From: a virus
Virus record (IMG/VR): IMGVR_UViG_3300043783_000058
Coordinates: 1 to 62,688 of that record
Length of the DNA: 62,688 bases
Strand: one strand, 5' to 3'
Numbering within the stretch: position 1 is the stretch's first letter; each line of letters opens with the position of its first letter. A program made the translations under genes and the position numbers. Below the pieces are notes generated by a model that worked only from the letters and a program-made list of their open reading frames with translations, was not told the DNA's origin and ran no database searches. Shown in pieces: positions 3,701-35,901 of the stretch.

Positions 3701-6700
3701 ACGCTGGCATAGAGTCAGGCGTTACCCAACACATCCAACATATCCTGATGCGGCTGCCGGACGTACCGCTGTACAGCCGCAGCACCATCATCCGGCCACC
3801 CACTGGCGCCGCGTTCAGCGAGGCGACTGTTGGATTGTTCCATGCGTCGGCGGATCACCCGAACCTCCAGGTCAACTTCCGCGATATGCCGGGCAAGCGC
3901 ACCACCGCTGGCATCCTGCACACGCTGATGCACGAGTCAGAGCACGCGGCGACTATGTTGGAGCTGCACTACAACCCGAAGGGCGAGCTAGCCACAGCGG
4001 CCGAGCACGCGCGCCAGATTCTGGAGCGGCGCCTGCGGGACCTGTACGGCAACAAGATGATCGACGAGCACCTGGCCTACTGGAGAGTGGCCGACGCTGG
4101 CAAGCCCGAGGAGTACCACGGTGAGTTCTACGGTCTGCAAGATTCGAAGGAGATGATGGCCGAGTTGGTGAATCCGCACTTCGTGGAGCGGATCATCGAG
4201 TCGGAGATGGTTCGCCAGAAGGGCGAGAACCTCCCCTCTCAGCGTGGCCTGCCGACGCTGCTGCACTTCATCTATGGCAAGCTCGCTAAGTTCTTCGGGT
4301 ACCCCGAGAAGGAAGGCCCCGGCCTGATGCTGCACATGCTCGATCTGCAACGCGACATCAGCAAGGCGCAGCGCGAACACTTCAGCCAGTTCTACGGCGA
4401 GGGTGCGTTCGAACGGCAGGTGACGAGCTTCCCGCCGGACTACACCGCGAACCTGGCGAAAGCTGCTGAGCTCGATCCGTTCCACGAGCTGAAGCGACCA
4501 GCCCCCATGATCAAGGCGGAGGACGCGAGCGCGCACATCGTGGGTGACGAGGCGGTAGCAACCGCTCGCGACACCGCGCACGCTATAGCCAGTGGCAGCA
4601 TAGACAAGGCGCGTCGTAGCGGCACCGCGCTTGAGACCGTCGGGCAGATCTTCCGTGGTCGTAGCAAATACTTCGGGAACTCGGACGACCCGACGAACCC
4701 GATGAACGAGCTGCGTGACGCGCACACCGAGAAGGAGAAGGGGATCATGGCGGGCAAGCGCATCTCCAACCCGGTCGCGCGCCTGTGGCAGAAGCTGAAC
4801 AACGAGAGTAACCGCCGCGTCGGCCAGCTGATGATCGACGCCAGCCTGTACAAGATCAGCCTGCGTCGCCCGCTCAGCGAGGACGATCTGGCAAAGAAGC
4901 CGGATGCGTTTAAGAAGCAGGTTGCGGAACTCACTCGCCGGTACGAAGCACTCACCGACAAGGAGCGAGCGGTGTACGACGGCGCAGCGGACGCGAACAA
5001 GGAGCTGCGCGCCGTCGAGCGCCGCACTGCTATCGACTCCGCCATCGAAGGGTTCGACCTCAAGGTGACTGACGCTGAGCGGGCGCAGCTCTACGCCGCC
5101 AAGGATGAGGGCGCATACGACAAGCTCGTCGGTAAGGGCCAGCTCCTGGACTTCGGCGAGCAGAACGACAAGCTCAAGGCGGCCCTCAAGGCGTGGGTGG
5201 GTGGCCGCGATCTCGAAGGGGACTACTTCCACCTCGGGCGCCAGGGCAACTACGTGGTGCAGGCGAAGCCGGAGGGGTCGAAGGAGTTCGCCAATGAGGC
5301 CGAGGCTAACAAGTGGGCGGACTCAGCCCGCGGCATGTCGCCGAACTCGAAGGCCGACGTGGAGTTCCGTGGCGGCAAGTGGGTGGTGGACTACAAAGTC
5401 GACCATGTGTCCATGCACAAGACCCGCAAGGAGGCAGAGAAGATGCAGGCGCAGCTGGAGCGCGGCGGCTTCGAGCCGGGGTCCGTGACCGAGAAGAATT
5501 TCGACGCGAACAACGCCCCGCTCAGCCATGGTATGACCGAGCTGATGGCAGAGGCGACTCGCAAACTGAATAGGGGAGGCAACCCTGCTGACGTGAAGCC
5601 GCTGGTGGACTCGCTCCACAGCGCCTTCCTCCAGATGCAGGCGCAGCGGTCGGAGTACGCCGGCTCGCGCCTGATGCGAAAGGGCGTGGGCGGCGTGAAG
5701 GCGAGCGAGATGCGCCAGAATTTCGCCGAGCACGCGACGGCGACCACCTGGCACACCTCGCAGCTGCGGACGATCTTCAAGCAGGCCGCCGCCCTGGCGC
5801 GGCTGCGCGGCATGGCCCGCGACAGCGACGTGCCGCAGTCTCTGGCTTACAAGCGCGGCGAGACAGTGACTGCGCTGGCGAACCACAGCGCAGTGGACGT
5901 GAACACGTTCGGCAAGTTCGGCGGGTTCAACCGCGCCACCGCGCGCCTGGGGTTCCTCTCGTACCTGGCTAGCCCGATGCACGCCGCGATCTGGATGACA
6001 CAAAACGCTTACGGGATCTCGACCGCTGGTGCAAAGTACGGCTACGGTCGCGCGACAGGGGCGTTCGGCCGGGGGATGGGGGCGACGTTCAGCCCAGCGA
6101 TGCGGTCCGCGATGCGGGCGGCGTTCAAGGGTGGCAACGCAGACGACATTACCGCAGCTATCATCAAAGCGATTGGCGAGCATCCCACTATGGGCAAGTG
6201 GGCGCCCGCCATCAAGGAGCTGCACGACCGTGGCGTGATCCAGCATGGCTACGCGAATGAACTGGGCGACTTGGCGGTCGGAGGGAACAACAAAGTCTCT
6301 CGTGTATTTGAATGGGCGCGGCTGCTGCCCTCTATGGCTGATGCCTTCAATCGCACCAGCACTGCTCTCGCTGGTCTCGAACTTACAGGCGGTGATCTAC
6401 GCAAGACCACCGACCTGATCGAGCAGATCCACGCGGACTACTCGCAGGAGAACAAGCCGCTCGCGTTCAAGTACGCCGGCCGCATCCCAGGCGGTAACAG
6501 CCTGATCATGATGAAGACCTACGTGCAGTCGATGGCTCACCTGATGTACAGCAACCTGGCTGCGACGGTGACGGGAGAGACGCGGGCCGCGAAGTGGGAG
6601 GCCGCTAAAACGGTTGGCGGGATGATGGTGGTGAGCACGCTGTTCGCAGGAGTGTACGGTGCTGTTGGGCTGGAGCCTGCGCGGCTGATCGCGTACGCCT

Positions 6701-7431
6701 ACCACAAGCTGTTCGACGAGGAGGGTGAGGTATGGGATATGAAGAATGCGATCCACCACTGGCTGGTGGACACGCTTGGCGCGGGTGTTGGGAACGCCCT
6801 GGCCCGCGGCCCAGTCGCGAGCGCACTGGGAATCGACGTGCAAGACCGTATGGGGTTGGCCAACCTGTTCTTCTTCAACCCGCCCGACCTGATGACCACG
6901 GACAAGTCGGTGTGGGGAACGTTCTTCATGGACGAACTTGGACCGCTGTTCCAGATGCTGGTCGACGGCGCAACCGAGGCAACCGGCCACATTCAAAACG
7001 GTGAGTACGCACAGGCCATGGCGTCGATACTGCCGATCAAGGTCGTGAAGGATGGATTAAAAGCTCTCCAGTTGGGCACAACTGGCAAGACTAATATCCG
7101 TGGTGCCGTGCAGACGGAGCCGTCGGCGTTGGATGCGGCGAAGCAGGCGTTCGGGGTGAAGCCGGTTAGCGTAGCAGAGGCTCAAGAGAAGTCTGGGGTC
7201 ATATCCGAGTACAGCAAGGCCGAGGGAATCGCTCGTACCAACATCATACGAGCTCTGGCTGGTCAGAAGGACGGGGCGATGGATCGGCGAAACTCATTCA
7301 ACCAACGCTTCCCCAACAAGAAGATCACGTCGGCGGATGTGGAGTCGTATAGGAAGGGGACGTTGAGGCAGGAGCAGGGGATTACAAAGGACCGGCGAGC
7401 AGCCGAGGCCGCTGACTTCTCAGGGCGTTAG
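733..7431 (+). CDS. Giant internal virion (ejection) protein with HExxH metallopeptidase motif
   Basis: This 2232-residue protein starts at an ATG with AAGGAG 6 bases upstream. Residues 1-110 are Pro/Ala-rich, and about 110-300 contain small-residue hydrophobic stretches of membrane-active type. A long charged Lys/Glu/Ala helical region follows, to about 900. Residues 1067-1071 read HESEH after a hydrophobic helix, and E1140 or E1144 could be the third zinc ligand, so a gluzincin-like protease is plausible. The C-terminal ~600 residues alternate amphipathic and hydrophobic helices, as in large polyvalent phage virion proteins. It is last in the virion operon and overlaps the convergent primase gene by 12 bases. 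Inference: it is ejected with the DNA, and the protease may cut peptidoglycan peptides, host proteins or itself. The virion role is fairly sure, the protease activity is not. Confidence 0.8.
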   Translation: MADPVPGTPDLTPPEGVPQGIDTAALTAKGQAQYAATPSGNRGSVSISQRGGTKFGTYPGAGTLPPAPAAEPEGTKEQPAVQPVEKPASVQPKENDDLDPSVHGFFKWAWNGVKEGAESAVPSLVGGAAETANVFLGMPAARAADAVMDVVHGKMPSSSGTHAAQDWMGDYYNKQLKPAIDAWEPEAGNPIAQGTQGGTMLALTKIPGVGTAAGAAMAAGTFTRSMTNAMDEGQTATQAVGGATVDTLAMLAIMKFVGKEGVGLDKIPYAWVRRVIAAVPIADIIGLGQDLAKKEILEHTGNHAAAEKIDVTEKLTDVGSIIQNEIFAILGGAQHGQQGEHQTGPKPPDPAPVKPAAGAPPTPPTPEGKEPPPPPPAPKAIEGTAPKASEATAVPAVPDHPTGEPAKQIRAQLTDMNRSATPRNGVLITPDTWAHLGELGEDHPHAGPVLNQIEQARKQGRVVETPVGDLVTKTKAIAASAKAELTAGVDPQEVIGRVTLGTDGPKRPDQTQVVQSLEPHDGAVTSERAVSPAERDPAMQEAMDSGKVPRVSTPEAVLHDRQEAMAKELPAPGADTARPENAAPAPSGEPDSVKPGMFKTASGKEVPVHVLPDGRIQPLDDNGEPAGTPVTPPAGSVRIGPKEPLAPVEAAPVEDLKGKSAMEQLPAVVSAHEKMEAVPEGKKKSASLKERQDNASAVAEALQKAAVEAKEKGTASEAAIERANEAARAAKGLTNISKENTEKGRGTGHVQVTAKVAEMHKAARGLLGEAREGDEVKETPKQAVTKKQILKRAVKAVANAEGAVKEVVKEAIKGGTEAIAKKREEKKPVKEPTATRQEYARMQALKDKLMAARTPDTARAARDELETHLNAVVDRLGQPRDMVMEFLKSADEERKESRGRKMSDTIEDEEQQFDRPDEGFDTVYRPHQAGDKAGKLLWNKGTTKMRADFKTLGDELDKRGFFQKMRELEDTGRASSARRVLEEVLKHAKDAGIESGVTQHIQHILMRLPDVPLYSRSTIIRPPTGAAFSEATVGLFHASADHPNLQVNFRDMPGKRTTAGILHTLMHESEHAATMLELHYNPKGELATAAEHARQILERRLRDLYGNKMIDEHLAYWRVADAGKPEEYHGEFYGLQDSKEMMAELVNPHFVERIIESEMVRQKGENLPSQRGLPTLLHFIYGKLAKFFGYPEKEGPGLMLHMLDLQRDISKAQREHFSQFYGEGAFERQVTSFPPDYTANLAKAAELDPFHELKRPAPMIKAEDASAHIVGDEAVATARDTAHAIASGSIDKARRSGTALETVGQIFRGRSKYFGNSDDPTNPMNELRDAHTEKEKGIMAGKRISNPVARLWQKLNNESNRRVGQLMIDASLYKISLRRPLSEDDLAKKPDAFKKQVAELTRRYEALTDKERAVYDGAADANKELRAVERRTAIDSAIEGFDLKVTDAERAQLYAAKDEGAYDKLVGKGQLLDFGEQNDKLKAALKAWVGGRDLEGDYFHLGRQGNYVVQAKPEGSKEFANEAEANKWADSARGMSPNSKADVEFRGGKWVVDYKVDHVSMHKTRKEAEKMQAQLERGGFEPGSVTEKNFDANNAPLSHGMTELMAEATRKLNRGGNPADVKPLVDSLHSAFLQMQAQRSEYAGSRLMRKGVGGVKASEMRQNFAEHATATTWHTSQLRTIFKQAAALARLRGMARDSDVPQSLAYKRGETVTALANHSAVDVNTFGKFGGFNRATARLGFLSYLASPMHAAIWMTQNAYGISTAGAKYGYGRATGAFGRGMGATFSPAMRSAMRAAFKGGNADDITAAIIKAIGEHPTMGKWAPAIKELHDRGVIQHGYANELGDLAVGGNNKVSRVFEWARLLPSMADAFNRTSTALAGLELTGGDLRKTTDLIEQIHADYSQENKPLAFKYAGRIPGGNSLIMMKTYVQSMAHLMYSNLAATVTGETRAAKWEAAKTVGGMMVVSTLFAGVYGAVGLEPARLIAYAYHKLFDEEGEVWDMKNAIHHWLVDTLGAGVGNALARGPVASALGIDVQDRMGLANLFFFNPPDLMTTDKSVWGTFFMDELGPLFQMLVDGATEATGHIQNGEYAQAMASILPIKVVKDGLKALQLGTTGKTNIRGAVQTEPSALDAAKQAFGVKPVSVAEAQEKSGVISEYSKAEGIARTNIIRALAGQKDGAMDRRNSFNQRFPNKKITSADVESYRKGTLRQEQGITKDRRAAEAADFSGR

Positions 7432-16968: not shown

Positions 16969-18561
16969 TCACATTCTCCAGGTGCCGTCGATGATGTTGA
17001 TCAGCTGCCGCTTGCCGTCGGCGTGCAAGATGCAATGGGTGTTCAGCCAGCTCGACGGTCCGCGATTGTACTCCAGTCGCAGGTAAGAGCTAGTGCCCAC
17101 CTGATAGCAGCCTTCCTCTATTCCCGGTGTGTGAGAGTGTCCAATAATAGAGCGCGTACCGATACGACGCAGACCACGAATGGACCCAGGTGCTCCGCTG
17201 GGGCCAACGTCTCCGTGCATCCCCAGTTCCACACCCGCCACAACCAGCGACTCGTCTCCGGATAGTGCCGTGACGTTCGATCCTGCGGATGCCAGCAGCA
17301 TCCCAAACGGGCTAGGATATTCAGTCCCTCCGACGCCCAGCTTGGTTGCCTTGACCATGGCCAGAGCCGTCGCCAAATAGAACTCGGCATTGGTCGGGTC
17401 CTCCTTCCAGTCGGCCTTGACTATCCAGCGCCTCAGCATGTCGTCATGGTTTGAACTAACGACAACGCCATGTCGTGTGCTGGATGTCCTTGCGGATACG
17501 TACTCAATCGCCCGCGCCACTTCCGCCCCAGCCGAGAGGCGACCAGCACGTAGCTTCGCGATGGCGTTAAAAGGGTTGCCTGCATGATGGGGATTGACCG
17601 AGTACGAGTCAAGGAGGTCATGAAAGACAAGACGCTTCGGCTGAAGGGTTTCCACAAGGCCCCCTTCACCAAATGTCCCGCGCTCGACCGCCGGGTCCAC
17701 GAAATCAACATGCGTATCTCCTAGCACGATGGCCTCGGGCGCCGGCGCGGGGCGCGAGCCCTTCGGCCCGTAGCGTTTGGTCAGGTCAGTGAACTCACCT
17801 GTCTCCTTGTCCGCATGGACGTGGCGCAGATGAAAGATCTTGTCTTCGAACTCCACGATCACGGCGCTGAAGCTGTGATGGAATTCGCCCAGCTTCCCTC
17901 GCTTGGTGTCGGTGTAGTTCTTGATCGTTACTGCCCCCGTCGTGGTGAGCAGCTTCGGCAGCTTGGTCTTCGGCACCGGTATGGTACGCAGCTGCAACTT
18001 GGTGTGGCCAAAGATCGCAGACTCCGGACCGGAGATCGACTCGAAGCCCCGCAGCGGTTCGCTGGCCGCGGCCTCGGTCTTGATGTCCGCCATCAGGATC
18101 AGGTTGTCGTTGATCGTGCGGCGTGTGTTCCACAGGTACTTCACGACTGCTGGGTCCCACCACTCGCGGCTCTCCTGGCGCTTCGACCAGACCGACGTGG
18201 GGTTCTTGTACCGCAGCGGGACGACCAGCAGCTCGGCTGAATTCTCCAGCGCGTACGCTTCCAGTGACTGCAGGAAGGCGCTGTGCACCGGGGTGGCATT
18301 CTGTGCCGCGGTGATCACGAGCCGCTTGGTGGTCTTCAGGAAGCGCTGGAAAACCTTCGGCGCCTCCACGACTCCTGCCTGCGTCCGCGGCTGCTGCATG
18401 GGCTCAGTAGTTGAGTAGCAGTACGGGCCGTTCTTCTTACTGCACTCCCACCGCACCGCGCCGCCCTTGGTCGTGTTTCCACGATGCATGGGTCCCCCAC
18501 ACTTAGGGCACGCGGGGACCAGATTTCCTTTGCGATTTTTTATCATCTTACCGGCGTACAT
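16969..18561 (-). CDS. Calcineurin-like metallophosphoesterase with N-terminal zinc ribbon
   Basis: 530 residues from an ATG with GAGG 7 bases upstream. The N-terminus has CPKCG at 18-22 with C40 and C48, a zinc ribbon. The dimetal phosphoesterase motifs are GDTH at 281-284, D315, SNHDD at 370-374, MHGD near 449 and GHSH at 474-477, in canonical order. The family hydrolyses phosphodiesters of nucleic acids, nucleotides or proteins. Size and domain type recall the T5 A1 pre-early protein, which is tied to host DNA degradation and second-step DNA transfer, but I cannot confirm homology. It sits near a Cas4-like nuclease, so attack on host DNA is a reasonable guess. Confidence 0.85.
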   Translation of the reverse strand: MYAGKMIKNRKGNLVPACPKCGGPMHRGNTTKGGAVRWECSKKNGPYCYSTTEPMQQPRTQAGVVEAPKVFQRFLKTTKRLVITAAQNATPVHSAFLQSLEAYALENSAELLVVPLRYKNPTSVWSKRQESREWWDPAVVKYLWNTRRTINDNLILMADIKTEAAASEPLRGFESISGPESAIFGHTKLQLRTIPVPKTKLPKLLTTTGAVTIKNYTDTKRGKLGEFHHSFSAVIVEFEDKIFHLRHVHADKETGEFTDLTKRYGPKGSRPAPAPEAIVLGDTHVDFVDPAVERGTFGEGGLVETLQPKRLVFHDLLDSYSVNPHHAGNPFNAIAKLRAGRLSAGAEVARAIEYVSARTSSTRHGVVVSSNHDDMLRRWIVKADWKEDPTNAEFYLATALAMVKATKLGVGGTEYPSPFGMLLASAGSNVTALSGDESLVVAGVELGMHGDVGPSGAPGSIRGLRRIGTRSIIGHSHTPGIEEGCYQVGTSSYLRLEYNRGPSSWLNTHCILHADGKRQLINIIDGTWRM

Positions 18562-19184: not shown

Positions 19185-19843
19185 TTGCGTGGTTTCCAAA
19201 ATTGGCAATCGGTTACGACACAGCCCTTGCAGAAGTAGTTTTCGCGCGGCGGGAAGTCCTGCTTCTCATGAGCCGCCTGATAGTTTGCCACTCGCTTAAG
19301 GATAGGTCCCCACACGGCAGACACATCGGCCCGCTTAATCCTGTCACCTGCTTGAACCTTCCGCGCTTTCGTCCAGTAGTACGCCGGCGTGACAACGTCG
19401 ATCTCCGGTGCGAGGTGCAACAGCACCGCCGCGTTGAGGTTCAGCTGCGTGAAGTCATCATGCGGCCGACCGGTCTTCCAGTCCCACACGACGCCGTAGC
19501 TGCCGTTGTACTGGGTGAGGTCGGACTTTACTCTAAGCCACGCGTCTTTGGAATACCATTCAACAGGCTGCCAGTTCACATCCAAACATATCTGTTGCTC
19601 GACGAGCTTCTGGCCCGCCGACTTCTCAATCATGGCCAGGGCGCCTTCATGGACGCGCAGGTGGATCGGCAGCGTTACCCGGTCGCGGAGCCGCAGCTCG
19701 AACGCCTTGTGGGTGGTCTTCCCCTCGATCATGGCATCCGACTCGGGCTCCTTGAGGTCCTTCTTGACGTTCAGGTGCCAGAATTTCCGCGGGCACGTCT
19801 CGAAGCCGTCCAGGCGGCTGTAGCTCCAGGCGACAGGCTTCAT
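19181..19843 (-). CDS. PD-(D/E)XK nuclease with Cas4-like Cys pattern
   Basis: 220 residues from an ATG with GGAG 6 bases upstream. The N-terminus (SYSRLDGFETCPRKFW) is the Cas4/AddB/RecB-nuclease signature. GKTTHKAFE supplies the motif-I His/Glu region, and VVWDWKTG (about 130-137) gives the D...(E/D)xK metal site. A C-terminal C-x2-C-x4-C plus the early Cys could coordinate a 4Fe-4S cluster as in Cas4. It would degrade or resect DNA ends. It is encoded between replication genes and the metallophosphoesterase; roles in recombination, host DNA degradation or end processing are all possible. Confidence 0.85.
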   Translation of the reverse strand: MKPVAWSYSRLDGFETCPRKFWHLNVKKDLKEPESDAMIEGKTTHKAFELRLRDRVTLPIHLRVHEGALAMIEKSAGQKLVEQQICLDVNWQPVEWYSKDAWLRVKSDLTQYNGSYGVVWDWKTGRPHDDFTQLNLNAAVLLHLAPEIDVVTPAYYWTKARKVQAGDRIKRADVSAVWGPILKRVANYQAAHEKQDFPPRENYFCKGCVVTDCQFWKPRK

Positions 19844-20283
19844 ATCATCTCCATCAAGGAGAGTTGCGCCCGGATATTTTCCAACTCCTCGCCGCTCAGG
19901 CTGCGAGGCTCGTAGGCGTAGAGGCGCACGGGGAAGTTGTTGTCGTTCTTCCAGCTCTGCCGCGGCGACTTGCGCCAGCCCTTGGGCAGCTTCAGGTCGC
20001 CCCACAGCTTCATGTTGAGCCGCGCCTTCACCTGGATGTCCACGATGATGCGCAGTTCGACCCGTTTGCCGTTCTTGTATGGCATCCGCTGCATTCGCGG
20101 CAGCTCACGCTTGGTCCCCTGCGGGACGATGATCCCTCCGCGGACGTGGTACCCGTTCGGCACATCGACATACTCCCAGTCGATCTTGCGCACCACCTCG
20201 GCTGGCTTCGGCGCGCACGTCATCACGCTCTGGAACGGCACGGGCGCTGCGGGCTGCAGCACCAGCTTGTAAGGGTTTTTCAA
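19840..20283 (-). CDS. Hypothetical basic protein
   Basis: 147 residues from a TTG start with GGAAG 6 bases upstream. A beta-rich N-terminal half is followed by a basic, Trp-containing helical half (KLPKGWRKSPRQSWK). The stop overlaps the nuclease start. No family recognised; nucleic-acid binding is conceivable from charge alone. Confidence 0.75.
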   Translation of the reverse strand: MKNPYKLVLQPAAPVPFQSVMTCAPKPAEVVRKIDWEYVDVPNGYHVRGGIIVPQGTKRELPRMQRMPYKNGKRVELRIIVDIQVKARLNMKLWGDLKLPKGWRKSPRQSWKNDNNFPVRLYAYEPRSLSGEELENIRAQLSLMEMI

Positions 20284-20585: not shown

Positions 20586-20803
20586 TGCCGCAGGTGGCCG
20601 CCTGGTGCGTCGTAGATGCCATTGGGGCAGACTGGCGCGTCGAGGTCCGGAGCCAGTGCCTGCTGGTCCCAGCGCTGCGAGCCAAACCTCCAGCCGTCCG
20701 GCTGCGCCGGCTGCGGCGCGACGTGGAACGCGAGGCCCGCGCACACGGTCATAAAGATACCGATGAAGACTCCGATAAGGAATGCTCGCTGCGCTTGTGT
20801 CAC
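20579..20803 (-). CDS. Small single-span membrane or signal-anchored protein
   Basis: 74 residues from a GTG start that overlaps the DNA polymerase stop (GTGA) with GGAG 8 bases upstream. A membrane helix spans about 7-24 (FLIGVFIGIFMTVCAGL), and the rest is Pro/Gln/Trp-rich with two Cys in the last 20 residues. It is probably anchored in the inner membrane with a periplasmic tail. No family recognised. Confidence 0.7.
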   Translation of the reverse strand: MTQAQRAFLIGVFIGIFMTVCAGLAFHVAPQPAQPDGWRFGSQRWDQQALAPDLDAPVCPNGIYDAPGGHLRQC

Positions 20804-22665
20804 TTTGCGTCTCCGTATGTGGGACCGTGTTTTACTTCTACGGCGATGGGGAGGTCGGGTAGGAAGTCTACCTGTCTCGTCATGACCGCGGCAACTACTG
20901 CTTTCACTCGCTCGACGATGGCCGTCGGGACCACCCAAACCAGCTCGTCGTGCACCTGGAGCGCCGTTGGCAGCCCCGCTCGGGCCAGCGTGAGCTCTGC
21001 GCGCGAGGCGATGATGCGGGCTATGGCCTGCGCGATATTCTCCAGAAACATTCCGCCCCAAATATTTCTGTCGGCGTTCTTGATGAACCGACTGTCGAAC
21101 GTCAGCGTCCGCCCCGTTGCTTTAAGGTTGGGGTAGATGACTGGCATCCCGTTGGGGAGGATGATCCTTTCGTGCGCGAACGAGATACCACCCCACGGGG
21201 ACGGCCAGATACTTCCTCGGTTGAGCATGTGGCAGCGGGCTGCGTGTTCAAGCGCGCCCCAGAGCTGCGGGATTTTCGGGTACGTGTTCCGGTAGAGCTG
21301 GACGATGTCGACGGCTTGTCGTTGGGTGAGGAAAATATCTTCGTTTGCAACTCGGAGTGCGAACTTAGCGCCCCCCATGCCATATCCCAGCCCAAGAATA
21401 CAGGTCTTGCCAACAAAGCGTTCTTGGGACTTTTTGTCGGTGACTGGCCGCTGGTAGATCTTGGAAGCGAATTCCGCATATATGTCGCGCCCTGCAGCGA
21501 ACCCGTCACGAAGTAGTGTTTCCCCAGCCAACGTGGCAACGATGCGAGCTTCGATGTTGGAGAAGTCGGCGGCGACAACTGAGTACCCGGTGGGAGCCTG
21601 GACAGCATAGCGGAGATGACCCTTTCGAAGTCCTCCGCCTTTATCGAACTCGACTCGTGGAAGGTTTTGGAGGTTGATCTCGTCGTCGCCCGAAAGACGG
21701 CCTGGGTGGGCTCCGTAGTACACCAGTGGCACGGGCAGCTCACCGCCCTTGAGATCACTGAGGGTGATGAGGCGCTTGACCCGGCCTTCTTCGAGGGTGC
21801 TGGATAGAGCGAGCTTAGCCTGGACAAGCTGCCGGACCCGTACATCGTCATGAGTAAGGAGTTCTTTGAACGCGAGATCGTCTTTGGCGAAGGCATAGGT
21901 TGCGGTGCCCTTTTTGTTGAGCTTCTTCGGCGCCTCAACGCCGTGGTTGCTCAACAGCTTTGCGAATTTCGGTCTGGATCGGATGTCGGTGATGGTGCAC
22001 TTGAAGTCGCGCTCCAACTGGCCGACCAGATGCTCTTTCTTGACTTCTATGTCAAGAAGCCGGTTTACCAGCGCCTTGCGGTTCAGCCTGAGCCTCGGAC
22101 GGACGAACTTCTTGATGGTTAAATCAAGAATCTCCTGCTCCTCCCACGGGAGGATGGTCTTCAGGTGATCGGCGATGCGCCGGCACAGCGTGCTGTCGCC
22201 GATGCAGTAAGCCCCGTACGCGGCCAGCTGCTCGGGTGAAAAATCCTCGCGGCGCAGCCCCCTGGCTTTGACCGCCTCGTCGCCCTTCACGCCCACCTTG
22301 AGGTGCCGCGCGACGGCGTCGAGAGATGCGCTCTTGGTGTACGGCACCAGGTGCGGACGCGCGCCGACCATTGTGCAGAGATACATCGCGGGTTGGATCT
22401 GCAGGCGCCACTCCAACACCGCAGCTTCCAGTCGCGCGTTGTGGGCCACTACCCGGACGGCCGACCAATCTGGGACGAGCCGGAGTAACTCGCTGCGGAC
22501 GTGGTTGGCGTCCCCAGTGATCCAGTGGTCAGCGCCGTCCGGGGTGGTAAGTCCACACCCAATGATCTCGAACCTCGGATCTAACACATACTCGCTCGTC
22601 GTGAGACGGTCGAGGCTGTATTGCTGGTCGTAGTACAGCTCGAAGTCGAGAGGGATGTCGATCAA
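20800..22665 (-). CDS. Family A DNA polymerase with 3'-5' exonuclease domain
   Basis: 621 residues, the replicative polymerase. The proofreading domain is at about 1-180: DFE at 7-9, AHNARLE at 74-80, YGAYCIGD at 150-157. The polymerase core has motif A AADFSNIEAR at 365-374 (catalytic D367), a motif B helix with R416, K420, Y428 and G429, and motif C VHDEL at 571-575. The residue four after K420, equivalent to E. coli Phe762, is Leu. There is no 5'-3' exonuclease domain. It starts at a TTG overlapping the upstream stop (TAATTG), and an in-frame ATG comes only after the first exonuclease motif. It partners with the primase-helicase at 7420-9831. Confidence 0.95.
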   Translation of the reverse strand: MIDIPLDFELYYDQQYSLDRLTTSEYVLDPRFEIIGCGLTTPDGADHWITGDANHVRSELLRLVPDWSAVRVVAHNARLEAAVLEWRLQIQPAMYLCTMVGARPHLVPYTKSASLDAVARHLKVGVKGDEAVKARGLRREDFSPEQLAAYGAYCIGDSTLCRRIADHLKTILPWEEQEILDLTIKKFVRPRLRLNRKALVNRLLDIEVKKEHLVGQLERDFKCTITDIRSRPKFAKLLSNHGVEAPKKLNKKGTATYAFAKDDLAFKELLTHDDVRVRQLVQAKLALSSTLEEGRVKRLITLSDLKGGELPVPLVYYGAHPGRLSGDDEINLQNLPRVEFDKGGGLRKGHLRYAVQAPTGYSVVAADFSNIEARIVATLAGETLLRDGFAAGRDIYAEFASKIYQRPVTDKKSQERFVGKTCILGLGYGMGGAKFALRVANEDIFLTQRQAVDIVQLYRNTYPKIPQLWGALEHAARCHMLNRGSIWPSPWGGISFAHERIILPNGMPVIYPNLKATGRTLTFDSRFIKNADRNIWGGMFLENIAQAIARIIASRAELTLARAGLPTALQVHDELVWVVPTAIVERVKAVVAAVMTRQVDFLPDLPIAVEVKHGPTYGDAK

Positions 22666-23773: not shown

Positions 23774-24085
23774 CTACACCCTCTCAGGTTGAGTCAACAC
23801 GAATGTGATGTGGCCGTACTCGCGTTTGCCAGATGGCCACGTGCGCACGGCTATGTCACGCGATTTCTTGAACCAGCGCCGCGGCTTAGCAACCGGCAAC
23901 CACTTGGGCCACTCCGGTCGCGGCCCCCAGACTTGCTCGTTGCGGCCGATGACATCCAGCGCGCCGAACCCGTGGAAGCAGAACGCATCTCCGCAGTCGC
24001 CGCAACTGATGTTCACGGAACCGCCGCCTTCGGGGCCACTCCGGAACCTCTCTCCGTCGCATGTCGGACATTTGATGTTAGCCAT
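23774..24085 (-). CDS. Zinc-ribbon hypothetical protein
   Basis: 103 residues. CPTC at 6-9 and CGDCGDAFC about 27 residues later make a likely zinc ribbon; the C-terminal part is basic and Trp-rich (PEWPKWLPV, RRWFKKS). The ATG lies 8 bases before the stop of the VWA gene. A nucleic-acid-binding accessory role is possible but unproven. Confidence 0.75.
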   Translation of the reverse strand: MANIKCPTCDGERFRSGPEGGGSVNISCGDCGDAFCFHGFGALDVIGRNEQVWGPRPEWPKWLPVAKPRRWFKKSRDIAVRTWPSGKREYGHITFVLTQPERV

Positions 24086-25268
24086 CCTTCTCTCCCAGCG
24101 GCACATGCACGGTCGTGCCCCACGGCGCCTGGATGCCCGGTGTCGTGATGGCCCAGACGGTCGGGATGCCCCGATCCTCGCCGAACCCGGTGTACCCATC
24201 GGTGAACACCACCACGCTCTCAGCCGGGATGTGCCGGTCGTCGATGATGTCGAACACCTTGGTCATATCGGTGCCACCACCACCTCCGGCCTTCTGTCCC
24301 AGCTCCTTGAGCATGTTCACGTCGTCGATCTCGATCACGTCCCCGTGCAGGCCATCGTCCACGTACATGACGTGGATCATCTTGGGCTGGATCTCCTCCA
24401 GTATTCCCCCAAGCTCGCCGAGGAAGGTCTTCAGCTCCTCCTCTCCGATGGACCCCGACGTGTCGATCTCCACCGCGACCTCCGGTCCCTGCAGGCCAGA
24501 CCTACCGGGCATATACACGTGAGGAGCGACCGCCAGCTTGCGCCGGTTGGGTCGTGCCCAGGTGTACACGTCCTTGCCGCGTGTGTTGTTCATGACCGCT
24601 CGGCGCAAGTGCTCGCGCCAGTCGATCTTGGGCTTGCAGAACTCGTCGATGAATCGGTCGAGTCCTCCGCAACCCTTGCCCTGCATCTTGGCCAGCTCCT
24701 TCGCCTTCTGCAGTGCCGCTTGGGTCTCCGGCACGTTGGGAAGGTCGTTCGGGTCTGGTTCCTCGTGCTGATCCGGACCATCGGGCTTCTCGTCCTCGTC
24801 CTCCGGCAGCTTCAGATACACCTCGTCAACGATGTCGTCCGCAGTCACCTGCGAATTCTGCAGCGAGCCCAGCGGCAGCTTGAAGCCTTGGCCGGTCAGG
24901 TGCGCGTTGATGATGTAATCAGCCGCGTGGTTGAACTTCTTGTGCGAGAACTTCTCAAGGTCCGGGCCTACGCCCAGCTGGATATATCCCTGCGCACGCG
25001 CCATGTGCTGGAAAATGATGTGGTCGATCTCGTGGCACAGCATCCCGATTCGCTCGTCGATGGTGTACTTGGCGAAGTTCTCCGGATTGATCCAGATGTG
25101 CTTGCCATCGGTCGCAGCCAGGTTCAGCTGCGAGCCCGACGGCAAAGCCTTCGTCTCCACGACCTCAGTCAGATCCAGCAACAGTGACGCGAAGAAAGGG
25201 TGTCTAACCAGCAGCGCGCTTATCGCCTCCGTCAGAGCCGGGTGGCGTTTCCCGCTTTGCTGCGTCAT
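24078..25268 (-). CDS. VWA-domain protein with N-terminal putative metallopeptidase
   Basis: 396 residues from an ATG with AGGAGA upstream. The N-terminal domain contains LCHEIDHIIFQH with HExxH at 79-83, the metallopeptidase-like domain that precedes VWA-like (DUF2201-type) domains. An acidic linker (about 150-180) follows. The C-terminal VWA-like domain has the MIDAS motif DTSGS at 269-273, a GGGGTDM loop near 330 and VVVFTDG. Such proteins partner MoxR-class AAA+ ATPases, and one is encoded 1.2 kb upstream in the same operon. Inference: a chaperone or metal-dependent remodelling complex acting on a phage or host protein. Confidence 0.85.
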   Translation of the reverse strand: MTQQSGKRHPALTEAISALLVRHPFFASLLLDLTEVVETKALPSGSQLNLAATDGKHIWINPENFAKYTIDERIGMLCHEIDHIIFQHMARAQGYIQLGVGPDLEKFSHKKFNHAADYIINAHLTGQGFKLPLGSLQNSQVTADDIVDEVYLKLPEDEDEKPDGPDQHEEPDPNDLPNVPETQAALQKAKELAKMQGKGCGGLDRFIDEFCKPKIDWREHLRRAVMNNTRGKDVYTWARPNRRKLAVAPHVYMPGRSGLQGPEVAVEIDTSGSIGEEELKTFLGELGGILEEIQPKMIHVMYVDDGLHGDVIEIDDVNMLKELGQKAGGGGGTDMTKVFDIIDDRHIPAESVVVFTDGYTGFGEDRGIPTVWAITTPGIQAPWGTTVHVPLGEKDG

Positions 25269-25530
25269 ATCGGCTTACTCTCCTCGCGATGATGTTGCCT
25301 TCGTTCACCAGCATGATCCGGCGGTCTGGAAAGACGCACCACCGGTACATGCGCCCCTGCGGGTCTTTGCCTGCCCCTGATTCGAGCGGGCAGACTATGA
25401 CACCGCGAACGCTGTACTCATGCTGTTGGTCGCGCACGCTCGGGCCGAACGATCCGGCCATTACGCACACGTCCTCGGGGATGGACGACACACGCCACGC
25501 TCCCCTGTGGTGCTGCAGGGGGAGCTTCAT
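25204..25530 (-). CDS. Hypothetical protein inside the MoxR-VWA module
   Basis: 108 residues. The ATG overlaps the upstream stop (ATGA) with GGGAG 5 bases before it. It is beta-rich (YSVRGVIVC, MYRWCVFPDRRIMLV) with a basic C-terminus, and overlaps the VWA gene by 65 bases. No recognised family. Its place between two module members suggests it is an accessory of that module. Confidence 0.75.
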   Translation of the reverse strand: MKLPLQHHRGAWRVSSIPEDVCVMAGSFGPSVRDQQHEYSVRGVIVCPLESGAGKDPQGRMYRWCVFPDRRIMLVNEGNIIARRVSRYDAAKRETPPGSDGGDKRAAG

Positions 25531-26447
25531 AGCTCCCACACCGCAGCGATGGCGGCGTCGTGCGCGATGGCTTCTGCAGCCTGCGCCACCTCAGCCGCCT
25601 TGGCCGGGCTCGTCCTGATCGCCGCGATGGGAACTGCGAGCAGCTCCTTCTCGATGCGGTCAGCGAGCGCCGTCAGCTCGGGCTTTCCTGTCGCGTTCAT
25701 GGTCCGCAACATTCCGACCATCCCCTGCAGATTCGTGTTGAGCGAATCGTACAGCCTGGTCTTCTCGCCCGCACCGGCCTTACCCAGCTGGGTAGACATG
25801 CGTCCGATGCAAGTGAGCAGGCGCTCCTTCACGTCGGCCATTGCGTTCCCCATCTGAGACTCCAGTGCCTTCGCGTGACGCTGTCCCAGAGCCTCGATGA
25901 GCGCCGTGGGGACATTGAGCCGCGTGAAGTCGGATTGTGCTGGAACCGGGAGCAGATCGACGCGAACACCGAACATCGCGGCGACTTGATCAGCTCTCGG
26001 GTAATCGTCGATAGAAGCCAGCCCACCCAGATTGGTGATGGCCTGCTGCACGCGAGCGTCCCAGACGTTGACCAACGCCTGCACTGCCTCGTCATACGGC
26101 TTCTTGACTTGGTTGAGCCCGGACAGAAAGTCGATGGCGCCTACGGCCCCGATGAGGCGCGGACCGGCGTTGGTCGCACCTTCACCGCGGCCACACCACG
26201 GTACCGAATTCTGCCGGACGTACTGCCTGACTTGCTCGGCGGCCTTCTGGACTGTCGTCAGTTCAGAGTCCGCCGACGCAAACAGGTACTTCACGAACTT
26301 ACCGCTGTCGCGGGCTGCGCCCTTGGCTGCGATAACTTCGGACGACACTTCGCGATCCGTCACGCGCCCAGACCACGACCGAATGTCGAGGTCCACGAGC
26401 ATGTAGTTCGCTGCAAGAGCGTCGTTGAGCAGAGTTGTGTCTGCCAT
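25527..26447 (-). CDS. DUF3150-like middle component of the MoxR-VWA module
   Basis: 306 residues starting at an ATG that overlaps the MoxR stop (TAATG). Mostly helical: an N-terminal VDLDIRSWSG strand-turn, then long helices with conserved-looking WDARVQQAITNLGG. In phages and proteobacteria a ~300-residue DUF3150 protein commonly sits between a MoxR ATPase and a VWA protein, and this gene has that size, place and opening motif. The assignment rests on context plus partial motif recognition. Biochemical role unknown; probably a substrate adaptor. Confidence 0.75.
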   Translation of the reverse strand: MADTTLLNDALAANYMLVDLDIRSWSGRVTDREVSSEVIAAKGAARDSGKFVKYLFASADSELTTVQKAAEQVRQYVRQNSVPWCGRGEGATNAGPRLIGAVGAIDFLSGLNQVKKPYDEAVQALVNVWDARVQQAITNLGGLASIDDYPRADQVAAMFGVRVDLLPVPAQSDFTRLNVPTALIEALGQRHAKALESQMGNAMADVKERLLTCIGRMSTQLGKAGAGEKTRLYDSLNTNLQGMVGMLRTMNATGKPELTALADRIEKELLAVPIAAIRTSPAKAAEVAQAAEAIAHDAAIAAVWEL

Positions 26448-27541
26448 TACCGTCCTGTGCTCGAAGTGATCAGGGCCTTGTTGCTGTGTATCCACTTGAT
26501 CAGCGCGGGCGAGTTGAGCAGCGCACTGCCGCTCCGCTCCAGCAACGACTTCGCCATGGACACCTGCACCTCGCGCGGGAGGCGCTCAGTGTATTGCCAC
26601 AGCGGGTCGATGTTGTCCGGCTTCGCGAAGTGAATGCACATCTGTCCGGCCGCCCATCCAGCCGACAGTTCCGTCGGGCACTTCGCCTTCTTGGGGTCGG
26701 CGAGGATCTCATCCAGCGTGGGCAGCTTGTCCCACACCTTCAGGTACCCGAACATGTTCGCGCCAGCACCCTCTCCGATGTCACCGTACACCGCCTGCTG
26801 GATTAGCGGGTCCGTGGGCAGCTCCATGTCTATGAGCCTGCCCTCAGCGTCGCGCTCCAAACCCACCTGCAGCTTGTTCGCCGCGCGCACGACAGATCGT
26901 GCAGACGCGAACGGGCGGCCAGTGTCTGGCACCTCGTCTACGAACGCCACAGTCGGATTCGACTTCGCCCAGCTGATGATCAGCGGATGAATGCCATGAG
27001 CCTCCGCCCACACGGCCCACGACAAGGCGTCGTTCTCCATGTTGATCTCGGTGACTCGGTTCTGGATGTGCGCGAGCATCTTGAATGCCCCCGACCTATC
27101 CTTCGCGCGATTGCTCGCCGCCCAGACTTGCCAGCCTTTGGGCAGCGTGAAGTCGCCGAACCGCTTCTCCAAGAGCACACCAGAGAGTGCCTTCTGCGTG
27201 AGGTGCTCAGCGGACGACAGCTCGTCCACCAAGTAGATCCCGCGCGGGTGCTTGGCGAAATACTCGTCACTGGGCAGCTCGGGCGACCGCGTGAACATGC
27301 TGATCGGCTGACCAGCGGCGTTCTTCGTGGGTACCAAGAAGCCCTTGTAGTCCGGTGCGTCCAGCGTTGGCGCAACGCTCACGAAGCTACCAAACTGCTC
27401 GCCGTAGTGCGCGCTCAGGATAGCCACGATCTCGTTACGGATCACGCTGGTCTTGCCCAGTCCGGGTGGACCGACCAAGTGCACCGCGTCCCCGGCCTCG
27501 TACAAGGTCCGTGAGACTTTCTGCAGATCTAGGATTCGCAT
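26447..27541 (-). CDS. MoxR-class AAA+ ATPase
   Basis: 364 residues from an ATG with GGAGG 8 bases upstream. Walker A GPPGLGKT is at 24-31, Walker B GIYLVDE at 101-107, and sensor 1 AASNRAKD is near 141-148; a helical lid follows. MoxR-type ATPases form hexameric rings that remodel partner proteins with a VWA co-factor. The gene order MoxR / DUF3150-like / small protein / VWA-metallopeptidase is kept within 3.5 kb with overlapping stops and starts, so the four probably form one machine. It is also the only AAA+ unfoldase candidate that could feed the HslV-like protein, which is speculative. Confidence 0.9.
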   Translation of the reverse strand: MRILDLQKVSRTLYEAGDAVHLVGPPGLGKTSVIRNEIVAILSAHYGEQFGSFVSVAPTLDAPDYKGFLVPTKNAAGQPISMFTRSPELPSDEYFAKHPRGIYLVDELSSAEHLTQKALSGVLLEKRFGDFTLPKGWQVWAASNRAKDRSGAFKMLAHIQNRVTEINMENDALSWAVWAEAHGIHPLIISWAKSNPTVAFVDEVPDTGRPFASARSVVRAANKLQVGLERDAEGRLIDMELPTDPLIQQAVYGDIGEGAGANMFGYLKVWDKLPTLDEILADPKKAKCPTELSAGWAAGQMCIHFAKPDNIDPLWQYTERLPREVQVSMAKSLLERSGSALLNSPALIKWIHSNKALITSSTGR

Positions 27542-31075: not shown

Positions 31076-31112
31076 AAGCAAAAAGAACCCGCGCAGTTCG
31101 TCCCTGCGCGGG
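31076..31112 (-). terminator. Intrinsic terminator after 31133-31678
   Basis: On the minus strand CCCGCGCAG and CTGCGCGGG form a perfect 9-bp stem with a 7-base loop, followed by TTCTTTTTGC. It lies 21 bases after the stop of the 181-residue protein and before the chain of tiny genes, so it should split or attenuate the leftward transcript. Confidence 0.85.
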
Positions 31113-31132
31113 CTGAGGCTAGGTCTGTCAGC

Positions 31133-31678
31133 CTACTTCACTGTCAGCGCGGCCTGTATCGCAGCGTCGCCCTTGACGAACGCTACAATCCGGCTGGCTA
31201 CATCTCGCGTGGACACGCTCACCTTGGGCACATCGGTGCCGGGGAAATTCTCCGCGTTGGTCGCCGTGCGCTCCAACGACTTGAGGAACTTCACCAGACC
31301 GAGCGTGGTCGGGTCTTTCTCCTTGGTGAGATCAGCGTACGTGGTCTCCATGGCATCGTCGATGCGGAAGTCCGCTTCGGTCCTGCCGCCGAACTTGTCC
31401 TTGTTCACCCGCCACGACTTGGTATCGGGGTCGATGCTCAGTGACACTCGGCCATTGGAGAACTCGCTGTACCAGACCTTGAGGGCCTGAACGCGCTGCG
31501 AGCGCGGCAGCGTGTCCATCAGTCGCGTGATGCCCGTCCAGTCGCCATGGGCGCGAGCGTGGTCGAGCGTTGAGCACGCGGCCAGATGAATGTCCGCTGT
31601 CAGCGTCTGCGCGGTCTCACCGATGCGCTCGATCAGCGCACCAGTGTCCTTCTGGTCAAGCAAGTCTGTGATCTTCAT
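31133..31678 (-). CDS. Early hypothetical protein, 181 residues
   Basis: Starts at an ATG with GGAG 8 bases upstream. Helical N-terminal half, then a strand pair (RVSLSIDPDTKSWRVNKDKFGG) and a helical end. No recognised domain. The 82-base leader upstream can form two hairpins on the minus strand (GGATGCA/TGCATCC and GGTGG/CCACC). With its own terminator downstream, this gene is probably expressed as a separate strong early unit. Confidence 0.85.
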   Translation of the reverse strand: MKITDLLDQKDTGALIERIGETAQTLTADIHLAACSTLDHARAHGDWTGITRLMDTLPRSQRVQALKVWYSEFSNGRVSLSIDPDTKSWRVNKDKFGGRTEADFRIDDAMETTYADLTKEKDPTTLGLVKFLKSLERTATNAENFPGTDVPKVSVSTRDVASRIVAFVKGDAAIQAALTVK

Positions 31679-31760: not shown

Positions 31761-31997
31761 TTACTTGAATCGGGCAATCTGCACTCGCACCTGCCGCGCC
31801 ATGCGAGCATCTCTCCGGCCGTCCGCGCGCTTCTGATTGCAGATTACGTGCGAGCCGACCGGCGAGCGCATCACGCGCTGCCAAAGGTTCGCAGGTATCT
31901 GTGTAAGCTGCGCGATACGACCGGCTCGATTCTCGATGTGCGGGATTGCGAAGTACCGACCCTTGAACAGTCTGACTTCTCTACCGTGGAGCTTCAT
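31761..31997 (-). CDS. First gene of the leftward arm, small basic protein
   Basis: 78 residues from an ATG with GAGG 5 bases upstream (a GTG 18 bases earlier is possible). Very basic (about one Arg/Lys in five), with short strands and a helical Arg-rich end. It is the gene closest to the dyad region at 32045-32329, in the position often held by an early regulator or host take-over factor. No family recognised. Confidence 0.7.
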   Translation of the reverse strand: MKLHGREVRLFKGRYFAIPHIENRAGRIAQLTQIPANLWQRVMRSPVGSHVICNQKRADGRRDARMARQVRVQIARFK

Positions 31998-32067
31998 ATG
32001 AACCTCGCTTATCACAGTCTCGACGATATGGGGCTTTCGCCGGAGCTTATGCCCTAAGCCCGCGCGA

Positions 32068-32294
32068 TGTAACAGTCACCGAAAAACGAACTGTTACACG
32101 GAAGTCATTGATTATGCGGGCTGAACGGGCTGTGTAACAGTGTAACAGTGGTTTTCGCAAGCCCGCTCAATGAGTAGGAATGCGTAAACACTATATAATA
32201 ACTGTTACACTGTTACAATATAGTAATAACTTATTAGCAAATCAATGACTTAGCCCGCGTAACACTCATCATGGTAAACTGTTGCACTGTTACA
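32068..32294. repeat. Eight-bp iteron cluster TGTAACAG / CTGTTACA
   Basis: Seven exact copies: TGTAACAG at 32068, 32133 and 32141; CTGTTACA at 32091, 32202, 32210 and 32287. A one-mismatch copy is at 32279. Copies at 32133/32141, 32202/32210 and 32279/32287 are directly abutting pairs, and the pairs on either side point towards each other. I did not notice exact copies elsewhere when reading the window. Likely binding sites for one protein as tandem dimers. Confidence 0.85.
32217..32245 (-). promoter_or_regulatory. Sigma70-type leftward promoter
   Basis: On the minus strand a -35 box TTGATT (32245-32240), a 17-base spacer and a -10 box TATATT (32222-32217). Initiation would fall about 32210, inside the abutting CTGTTACA pair, so a protein bound there would block or modulate it. 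It points towards the leftward early genes starting at 31997. Confidence 0.65.
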
Positions 32295-32756
32295 CCATGT
32301 AATCGTGTGCACGGGCTGAGGGCATAAGCCCCGGATTGTGTATCTGTCCGGTTAGGATATATCTGCGCGTGTTTACGTGGACACTCCACGTCAAGCCGCA
32401 GACTTACGTTTAAGCCCGCATAGCGGACTAGAGACTAAGCGGCCGGGACGTTACGAGGGAATTACACCTCACCCGTTAGCCTACTCGGCGCGGAATAAAG
32501 CCCGCAGTTGTCCCTATAGCGCGCACGACATCAGTCTTGTGACCTACCGAGCGCACACCATAGGCTGCTAGGTGTTACCGCACCCGCGTTGCCTCGCACT
32601 GGCCGGGTACCTTGGGAGCGTACGTGCGGTGACAGTGCAACCATAGGGATTCTGGATTGCATTATGACCAGACCCCCCATGGTAGGGTGGACCGAGGGGG
32701 AGGGGGCTCGGCGGGCGGCTTACCCCAAGCCCGCATGGTTGTGCTATCCCTGGACC

Positions 32757-32772
32757 TATACATACGTAATGG
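32757..32772 (+). promoter_or_regulatory. Start-codon box, copy 1
   Basis: TATACATACGTAATGG, identical to 32815-32830 and one base different from 34372-34387. TATACA would serve as a -10 box with its centre about 10 bases before the A of ATG, fitting initiation at the start codon itself (leaderless mRNA). It precedes a possible 22-codon peptide. Confidence 0.5.
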
Positions 32773-32837
32773 TGGCGGGAGAAATTCGCTCTGGGTATCG
32801 GCGCGAAGCCGTGGTATACATACGTAATGGACGCTGA
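32769..32837 (+). CDS. Possible 22-residue leader peptide
   Basis: The ATG at the end of box 1 opens a 22-codon frame ending inside the next gene (11-base overlap with 32827-33054), and box 2 lies within it. No ribosome site. It may be a coupled leader or only chance; reported because both repeats end on an ATG that opens a frame. Confidence 0.25.
   Translation: MVAGEIRSGYRREAVVYIRNGR
32815..32830 (+). promoter_or_regulatory. Start-codon box, copy 2
   Basis: TATACATACGTAATGG; the ATG at 32827 is the start of the first rightward gene, which has no Shine-Dalgarno sequence. See copies at 32757 and 34372. Confidence 0.55.
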
Positions 32838-33054
32838 AGCCTATCGTGAGTTCGTGCGTGGTATGCCTAGGCCCGCTCCGCCCGCATGTGCGTATAGAGG
32901 CTGCACCGAAAATAAACTCAAGCACTCGCCCCTATTCTGCGCACTACACGAGATGGCTTGGATCGCGCACAAGGGAGCACCTAGTCACCAACTTGACAGC
33001 GTCGAGATCGGCGCCGCGGTTTTATGGGCGAAGAACTACCACATACAGACATAA
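32827..33054 (+). CDS. First rightward gene: small zinc-finger-like protein
   Basis: 75 residues. The start codon is the ATG of box 2; no ribosome site precedes it. ACAYRGCTE, then FCALHEMAWIAHKGAPS, matches the pattern of the protein at 28752-28994, so the two are paralogues with a possible C/C/C/H zinc site. Its position beside the dyad region, opposite the leftward arm, suggests early expression. Function unknown. Confidence 0.7.
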   Translation: MDAEAYREFVRGMPRPAPPACAYRGCTENKLKHSPLFCALHEMAWIAHKGAPSHQLDSVEIGAAVLWAKNYHIQT

Positions 33055-35358: not shown

Positions 35359-35701
35359 ACTTGCGAAGATGGTGAGCGCCGGAGATCTCGGCGGCACCGC
35401 AGAAGCTCTGACGAACCCGGGCTACCGAGAGGTGCTGGGACAGGGCGACGTGGCCCGCGGCACGGAAGACCCCGTGCTGGGCGAAGACATACGCGCTCTC
35501 CTGATCATGGCGCAATGCGTAGCCCGCTGGATGGGCACGTACTGGGACGTGCGTCGGCTGTCTGGCATCGACCAGCCGCGCGACTGGGTCCCGCCGCGCC
35601 CGGGCATCAAGTGGCGAGCCCTGACCGGCATCGCCGCGAACGCGACGTTCGAGGAGTGGCGGGAGGGGCTGAACAGTTTCGTTGGAGGTCTCGGGAAATG
35701 A
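35345..35701 (+). CDS. Hypothetical protein
   Basis: 118 residues from a GTG with GGAGG 9 bases upstream, overlapping the preceding gene by 14 bases. It ends FEEWREGLNSFVGGLGK, a helix like the endings of its neighbours, so it may be a diverged member of the same paralogue family. Unrecognised otherwise. Confidence 0.7.
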   Translation: MGRSELAKMVSAGDLGGTAEALTNPGYREVLGQGDVARGTEDPVLGEDIRALLIMAQCVARWMGTYWDVRRLSGIDQPRDWVPPRPGIKWRALTGIAANATFEEWREGLNSFVGGLGK

Positions 35702-35901
35702 CTCGGACCTCGGTGGGCACACGCGTCCGCGTGAACTTCTACTTCGACACGGCGATGTTTGACGGCCTGCGTCGCCTGGCGGGGTTGCAGAACACCACCT
35801 ACTCGGAGTTGATCCGCGTGGCTGTGCGCGAGTACCTCATCCGACAGACAGAGGCGGCGATCAGGGCCGACAAAGCCATCAAGGAGATTGGACGTGAATG
35901 A
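35698..35901 (+). CDS. Ribbon-helix-helix DNA-binding protein
   Basis: 67 residues starting at an ATG that overlaps the previous stop (ATGA), GGAGG 9 bases upstream. A short basic strand (TRVRVNFYFD) followed by two helices (MFDGLRRLAGLQNTTYSELIRVAVREYL) is the CopG/Arc ribbon-helix-helix plan. It probably dimerises and represses or activates a phage promoter. It is the only recognisable transcription-factor fold in the genome and so a candidate ligand of the iterons at 32068-32294, which is inference. Confidence 0.75.
   Translation: MTRTSVGTRVRVNFYFDTAMFDGLRRLAGLQNTTYSELIRVAVREYLIRQTEAAIRADKAIKEIGRE

Follow-up and report, generated by a model that had tools for sequence, protein, structure and literature searches.

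Analysis of the window (the whole 62.7-kb stretch of DNA presented here, a circularly closed phage contig) revealed a mirrored array of short repeats at positions 32040 to 32334 that is probably a theta-type replication origin, at which a phage-specific, IHF-assisted initiator of no known family would act. We place the probability of this reading, which is drawn from sequence comparison, at roughly 0.7. The array is a conserved element and most likely represents an origin of PICI/P4-like geometry combined with IHF sites, in a lineage with no recognizable initiator.

Iterons and inverted repeats

The region contains eight TGTAACAGT sites, seven of them exact and one with 1 mismatch, located at 32068 (+), 32090 (−), 32133 (+), 32141 (+), 32201 (−), 32209 (−), 32278 (−; 1 mismatch), and 32286 (−), where minus-strand copies read ACTGTTACA on the plus strand. 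The exact 9-mer is absent from the rest of the window, which holds four further, scattered 1-mismatch matches. The 295-bp region holds seven copies of a single 8-mer, compared with a maximum of three in 500 dinucleotide shuffles, and no other stretch of the genome has as many copies of one 8-mer. As in iteron origins, the short specific repeat is confined to a single noncoding region. The dyad with its repeats is real and far beyond chance, and its elements are as follows:

32040-32065 (+): left arm of the outer 26-bp inverted repeat (23/26), with a counterpart in L032 and L008
32068-32076 (+): iteron TGTAACAGT, facing the next iteron
32090-32098 (−): iteron, ACTGTTACA on the plus strand
32133-32149 (+): tandem iteron pair TGTAACAGTGTAACAGT, 8-bp period
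32201-32217 (−): mirrored tandem iteron pair within the AT-rich core, a perfect 17-bp inverted repeat of 32133-32149
32278-32294 (−): third tandem iteron pair, first copy with 1 mismatch
32309-32334 (−): right arm of the outer inverted repeat, with a counterpart in L032 and L008

The two central tandem pairs form the perfect 17-bp inverted repeat (32133-32149/32201-32217), whereas shuffled sequences yielded no more than 14 bp; a perfect 12-bp inverted repeat lies at 32102-32113/32240-32251, and the outer repeat (32040-32065/32309-32334) matches at 23 of 26 positions, compared with at most 16 of 26 in shuffles. All the elements of the preliminary description, namely mirrored iteron pairs around an AT-rich center and a perfect 12-bp inner repeat, are present. 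The inverted repeat that it placed at the ends (17 bp, 16/17) also exists, but its actual length is greater (26 bp, 23/26). Iteron copies inside one genome match across the entire unit, so the protein that reads them would be expected to contact the whole unit. A nucleotide search of the dyad region against phage records returned no match, and a literature search for its core sequence found nothing relevant.

Many AAGCCCGC/GCGGGCTT copies are scattered through noncoding DNA between 32057 and 32870 of the window, and likewise in relatives, and some of them form hairpins, such as the terminator-like one at 31086-31114 listed below. Farther to the right, a direct repeat of TATACATACGTAATGG (32757-32781 and 32815-32839; 84% over 25 bp) carries an ATG in each copy, that of the second copy being the start of the ORF at 32827-33054; similar CATACATACGTA repeats occur near position 1040 of L010. 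The TATACATACGTAATGG repeat is possibly a phage promoter or leader.

IHF-like sites and duplex stability

The inner 12-bp repeat, AATCAATGACTT(A), is a pair of sites matching the IHF consensus (WATCAANNNNTTR), and no other 300 bp of the genome are as AT-rich as the dyad region. Predicted features within and beside it are as follows:

31086-31114 (−): terminator-like hairpin with a T run, just 3′ of gene A
32101-32113 (−): second, inverted IHF-like site AATCAATGACTTC, 8/9 to the consensus, the weaker mirror copy
32190-32245 (−): two overlapping, weak sigma70-like promoter matches (32245-32217 and 32218-32190) directed toward genes B and A
32192-32251 (no strand): predicted duplex-unwinding element
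32240-32252 (+): IHF consensus site AATCAATGACTTA, 9/9, the sole perfect match on either strand of 62.7 kb

Of all 60-bp windows in the genome, the predicted unwinding element has the lowest duplex stability (z = 5.8, compared with 3.6 for the next best), so that an AT-rich segment predicted to melt easily lies beside the repeats. The evidence from sigma70-like promoters is weak, with three matches found compared with 1.3 expected. A DnaA-dependent origin was ruled out: DnaA boxes are absent from the region, and the single TTWTNCACA match in the genome is at 7977. We also considered the 14-mer containing the IHF site as a marker of one phage family and rejected it because it equals the IHF consensus, and many unrelated contigs also carry it.

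Genomic setting

The ends of the contig share exactly 127 bp, a sign of circular closure by assembly. The left arm (minus strand) encodes a family A DNA polymerase (20800-22665), a SNF2/DEAD helicase, exonucleases, a MoxR-like ATPase, and a VWA/DUF2201 protein, and the right arm (plus strand) encodes the terminase large subunit, portal, and structural genes. By terminase and polymerase, the closest isolates are the Rhizobium phages RHph_TM3_14A and kin (43% and 36%), with the Pseudomonas phages Rollin and KPP25 more remote. Gene direction flips at the dyad region and the cumulative AT-skew minimum lies at 32055, confirming the earlier placement of the dyad where the transcription arms diverge; about 480 bp of apparently noncoding DNA separate it from the first rightward gene. 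GC skew, for which a switch had been expected here, does not change at the dyad: its extremes lie at 12.4 and 58.4 kb of the window, an outcome that, for GC skew, the preliminary description had counted against an origin. In relatives, too, the extremes lie off the array, except roughly in one. Among the ORFs of the window tested by HMM, no replicative (hexameric) helicase, primase, VapE homologue, integrase, recombinase, repressor family, or known initiator was recognized, and neither was a ParA-like ATPase; the earlier statement that no initiator or repressor of known family is encoded holds for every ORF tested.

Three other regions deserve mention. Consecutive leftward genes at 24078-27541 encode the MoxR-like ATPase, a protein with a distant DUF3150-annotated homologue, and the VWA/DUF2201 protein, a trio that recurs together in about 7 to 9 of 31 loci chosen for IHF-consensus 14-mers. 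A 530-aa protein (16969-18561) matches phrog_1745, "DNA transfer protein" (E = 2.5e-140), and has an N-terminal zinc-ribbon-like motif, with no PDB sequence match found. A 2,232-aa ORF (733-7431), the first 1,000 residues of which have no PHROG match, is probably a giant virion protein.

Array design in related phages

Relatives were gathered by terminase and by gene A similarity (gene A, 31133-31678, and gene B, 31761-31997, are described below). In about 17 related phages, tandem repeats of other sequence, with a period of 8 and sometimes 9 bp, lie with IHF-like sites beside gene A in AT-rich DNA. Examples of the tandem units are AAAGGGAC (L017), GGACAAGTA (L033), TGAGACAG (L010), TAGTTACA (L014), AGATACAA (L020), CTGTAAGA (L008), ATAACAGA (L032), TAAGACAA (L068), TGTAGCAG (L077), AACGTCAT (L083), TGACACA (L222), and CTACTCA (L220). 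"ACA" is common to 11 of 12 iteron units, a count reached in 2 of 3,000 letter shuffles, although the units were hand-picked. At least six copies of one 7-mer per 300 bp were found beside gene A in the window, L017, L033, L068, L077, L078, L079/L080/L083, L220/L223, and L222, compared with 4 of 1,028 control windows. A clear array was not seen in L025, L031, L059, L073, and L221, some of which are contigs that end there, and no gene A was detected close to the arrays of L163, L106, and L099.

Perfect IHF sites occur in 8 of 19 array regions (dinucleotide shuffles: mean 0.34, maximum 3) and sites of at least 8/9 in 18 of 19 (mean 6.2, maximum 11). In all five near-complete genomes, including the window, the 60-bp segment with the lowest stability genome-wide coincides with the array, not more than ~160 bp from the tandem iterons (stability minimum/array: 60354/60368, 45297/45336, 24306/24152, 15909/15828, and 32192/32133). 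Counterparts of the outer inverted repeat are present in two close relatives, L032 and L008 (21/24 each), and genes A and B were both found in 4 of 4 additional near-complete genomes. The preliminary description had asked whether relatives conserve the repeats and symmetry: the design is kept (tandem period, AT-rich DNA, IHF sites), while the letters differ. Since the geometry is retained and the recognition sequence replaced, these phages offer a natural series on the evolution of initiator specificity.

Linkage of the array to genes A and B is kept, but its position relative to promoters is not, which bears on the other function proposed earlier, a divergent switch at which a repressor or activator on the mirrored iterons would control a leftward and a rightward promoter. 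In the window the arms diverge exactly at the array, and promoter-like sequences, albeit weak, overlap the iterons; iterated operators with IHF are known from phage switches, and both the promoter and the stability evidence would fit a regulatory region as well. However, the position of the array varies: it lies upstream of A (and B), at the arm divergence, in the window, L032, L008, and L024. In most relatives (L010, L014, L017, L020, L033, L068, L077, L078, L079-L083, L220, L222, and others), the leftward operon contains the array, on the 3′ side of gene A, rather than having it between divergent promoters, so divergent-promoter control is unlikely to be the conserved function. In three whole genomes the AT-skew switch, i.e., the divergence point, is about 1.5 kb away. 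The colocalization with the stability minimum in all five genomes and the lack of a repressor or integrase family among the ORFs tested also speak against a switch, which we consider unlikely as the essential role, although autoregulation of B and A could coexist with an origin.

Similar arrays in unrelated phages and known systems

Matching anatomy was found immediately 3′ of VapE, DUF5906, or Toprim primase-helicase genes in unrelated uncultured phages (L134, L136, L232, L233, L240, L247, and L248), several of which share the identical TGTAACAG iteron; in L246, the primase-helicase neighbor was assigned by weak tblastn similarity only, and in L193, the array lies on the 5′ side. A primase was present within 2.5 kb of 4 of 23 IHF-14-mer loci with iterons and 1 of 64 without, a suggestive difference in a small sample whose seed primases came from the same loci. 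By analogy of position, gene A would fill the place of the initiator gene in these layouts. Together with the IHF sites, the stability minimum, and the arrays of relatives, the VapE/primase-helicase neighbors support the earlier proposal that iterons and the AT-rich core between them make up a replication origin.

The plasmids R6K and pSC101 combine iterons, an AT-rich region, and an IHF site, with iterons of 17 to 22 bp mostly in one orientation. The window likewise combines iterons, AT-rich DNA, and an IHF-like site, but its units are 8 bp long and occur in both orientations. Closer in unit length is crr of phage P4, where 8-bp direct repeats are read by the phage-coded alpha protein, a primase-helicase with an origin-binding domain; no alpha homologue was detected in the window. 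In PICI/SaPI origins, two sets of short iterons flank an AT-rich putative melting site beside a replication gene (PMC6092414). The window shares this arrangement of two iteron sets around an AT-rich region, but whereas the PICI/SaPI initiator is a recognizable Pri-Rep (primase/helicase), no primase/helicase of the Pri-Rep, VapE, or alpha type, which in PICI/P4-type origins would be encoded immediately 5′ of the origin, was found among the ORFs tested. The window also differs in that it is an entire phage genome encoding a family A polymerase and that its design includes an IHF site. That initiators can lack primase and helicase functions is shown by RepA of the Vibrio cholerae PLE, which has no predicted activity of either kind and whose N-terminal domain mediates DNA binding (PMC7145576). 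The PLE origin resembles the window in having iterons, but its RepA belongs to the RepA_N family, to which neither A nor B has a Pfam match. PICI-like geometry with IHF sites occurs both in a whole phage lineage with no recognizable VapE/primase initiator and in other uncultured phages whose genomes encode such a protein.

Candidate readers of the array

The following genes were considered as sources of the protein that reads the iterons:

31133-31678 (−): gene A, 181 aa, phrog_1448, function unknown; candidate initiator
31761-31997 (−): gene B, 78 aa, very basic (18 K+R, 4 D+E), no known family; candidate iteron reader
35698-35901 (+): RHH protein put forward earlier, conserved across the lineage; disfavored as specific reader

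The best candidates are genes A and B, a short leftward unit that begins next to the array. Gene A matches phrog_1448 (E = 1.3e-20), relatives of which occur in 259 phage records, including culturable Acinetobacter, Pseudomonas, and Caulobacter phages, with no homologues on PLSDB plasmids. Its structure model is confident (pLDDT 87.5): the chain opens with three helices and a beta hairpin, an order that we read as winged-helix-like, and continues into a helical region; the predicted fold has no significant PDB match. Gene B, proposed earlier as a reader, is still a good candidate, although its own model is poor and of low confidence. Since genome-specific iterons lie beside two conserved genes of unknown function, the protein reading them is probably an initiator of a new kind.

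Searches of BFVD with gene A returned uncharacterized phage proteins and weak, nonsignificant matches to small terminases. The latter would fit a packaging site (cosB- or pac-like) where the repeats would be bound by a small terminase and the DNA bent by IHF, as in lambda cosB, where terminase R sites are paired with an IHF site. Some unrelated arrays do lie near terminase genes (L099 and L193), and T7-like phages carry short repeats near their genome ends, similar to repeats found near A homologues. However, cosB adjoins terminase genes, whereas the array has early genes as neighbors and is separated from the large terminase gene by 6 kb in the window and by 4 to 8 kb in the lineage; elsewhere, matching anatomy abuts primase/VapE genes. 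Moreover, in Autographiviridae the A homologues belong to the early genes close to the left end, a long way from the expected terminase position. We regard packaging as distinctly improbable.

The RHH protein bears on another DNA-structural role (centromere-like, end maturation, or nucleoid organization), in which A, B, or RHH would read the array. RHH proteins often bind 7- to 8-bp tandem repeats, and the gene is conserved in the lineage. Yet its predicted base-contact residues (R/K-N-Y), at positions that we presume from the known RHH fold, are mostly unchanged in phages with different iterons; it is therefore disfavored as the specific reader, contrary to the earlier suggestion. With no ParA-like ATPase recognized in the window, we judge such a role very unlikely.

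An attachment or recombination site (attP) with arm-type and IHF sites is highly improbable: IHF sites and short direct repeats, both attP features, are present, and the same IHF 14-mer occurs singly just 3′ of tRNA-like sequences in L118, L153, and L203, but the ORFs tested include no recognizable integrase or recombinase, the tRNA-Met gene is 1.6 kb away from the dyad, and mirrored arrays recur in phages that have another repeat sequence but retain gene A. The 14-mers of L118, L153, and L203 are probably attachment-site IHF sites of integrated elements.

A model for initiation

On the origin reading, the 8-bp iterons would be bound in both orientations around the AT-rich core by a phage-encoded protein, for which genes A and B are the likeliest sources. 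Host IHF would bend the DNA at 32240-32252, and probably also at 32101-32113, so that the mirrored iteron clusters meet; the weakest duplex of the genome (32192-32251) would then melt, and the family A polymerase, with a recruited helicase and primase, would start theta replication. The B-A unit may be autoregulated, as promoter-like sequences overlap the iterons.

A more specific version, possible but tentative, is that gene A represents a new initiator class, i.e., a winged-helix protein with no ATPase that would read 8-bp iterons and recruit the replisome with host IHF. In T7-like phages, the related early proteins would likewise act at an origin or at the start of the genome, and the iterons would diversify rapidly at a fixed 8-bp period, giving each phage a private origin. 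Such privacy could, for example, have been favored by nucleases that target origins, by satellites, or by relatives infecting the same cell. The proposal gives phrog_1448, a family of unknown function, a concrete and testable role. The A homologues of Autographiviridae sit beside differently spaced repeats, which counts against the origin reading.

Upstream of these homologues, the repeats are spaced 11 to 13 bp, recalling the T7 short repeats, in L205 (Caulobacter phage Cd1; 584), L207 (Acinetobacter phage Petty; 383-552), L209, L211, and L212, and perfect IHF consensus sites are present in Cd1 and Petty. In the Rhizobium phage RHph_TM3_14A (L204), an AT-rich intergenic region between co-directional genes (19355-20125) contains an inverted IHF-like pair and is possibly a counterpart origin in a cultured phage. 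Finally, in L230 and L231, TGTAACAG iteron arrays and PIF1/RecD-like helicase genes are no more than about 1.5 kb apart, and these arrays may represent another origin type.
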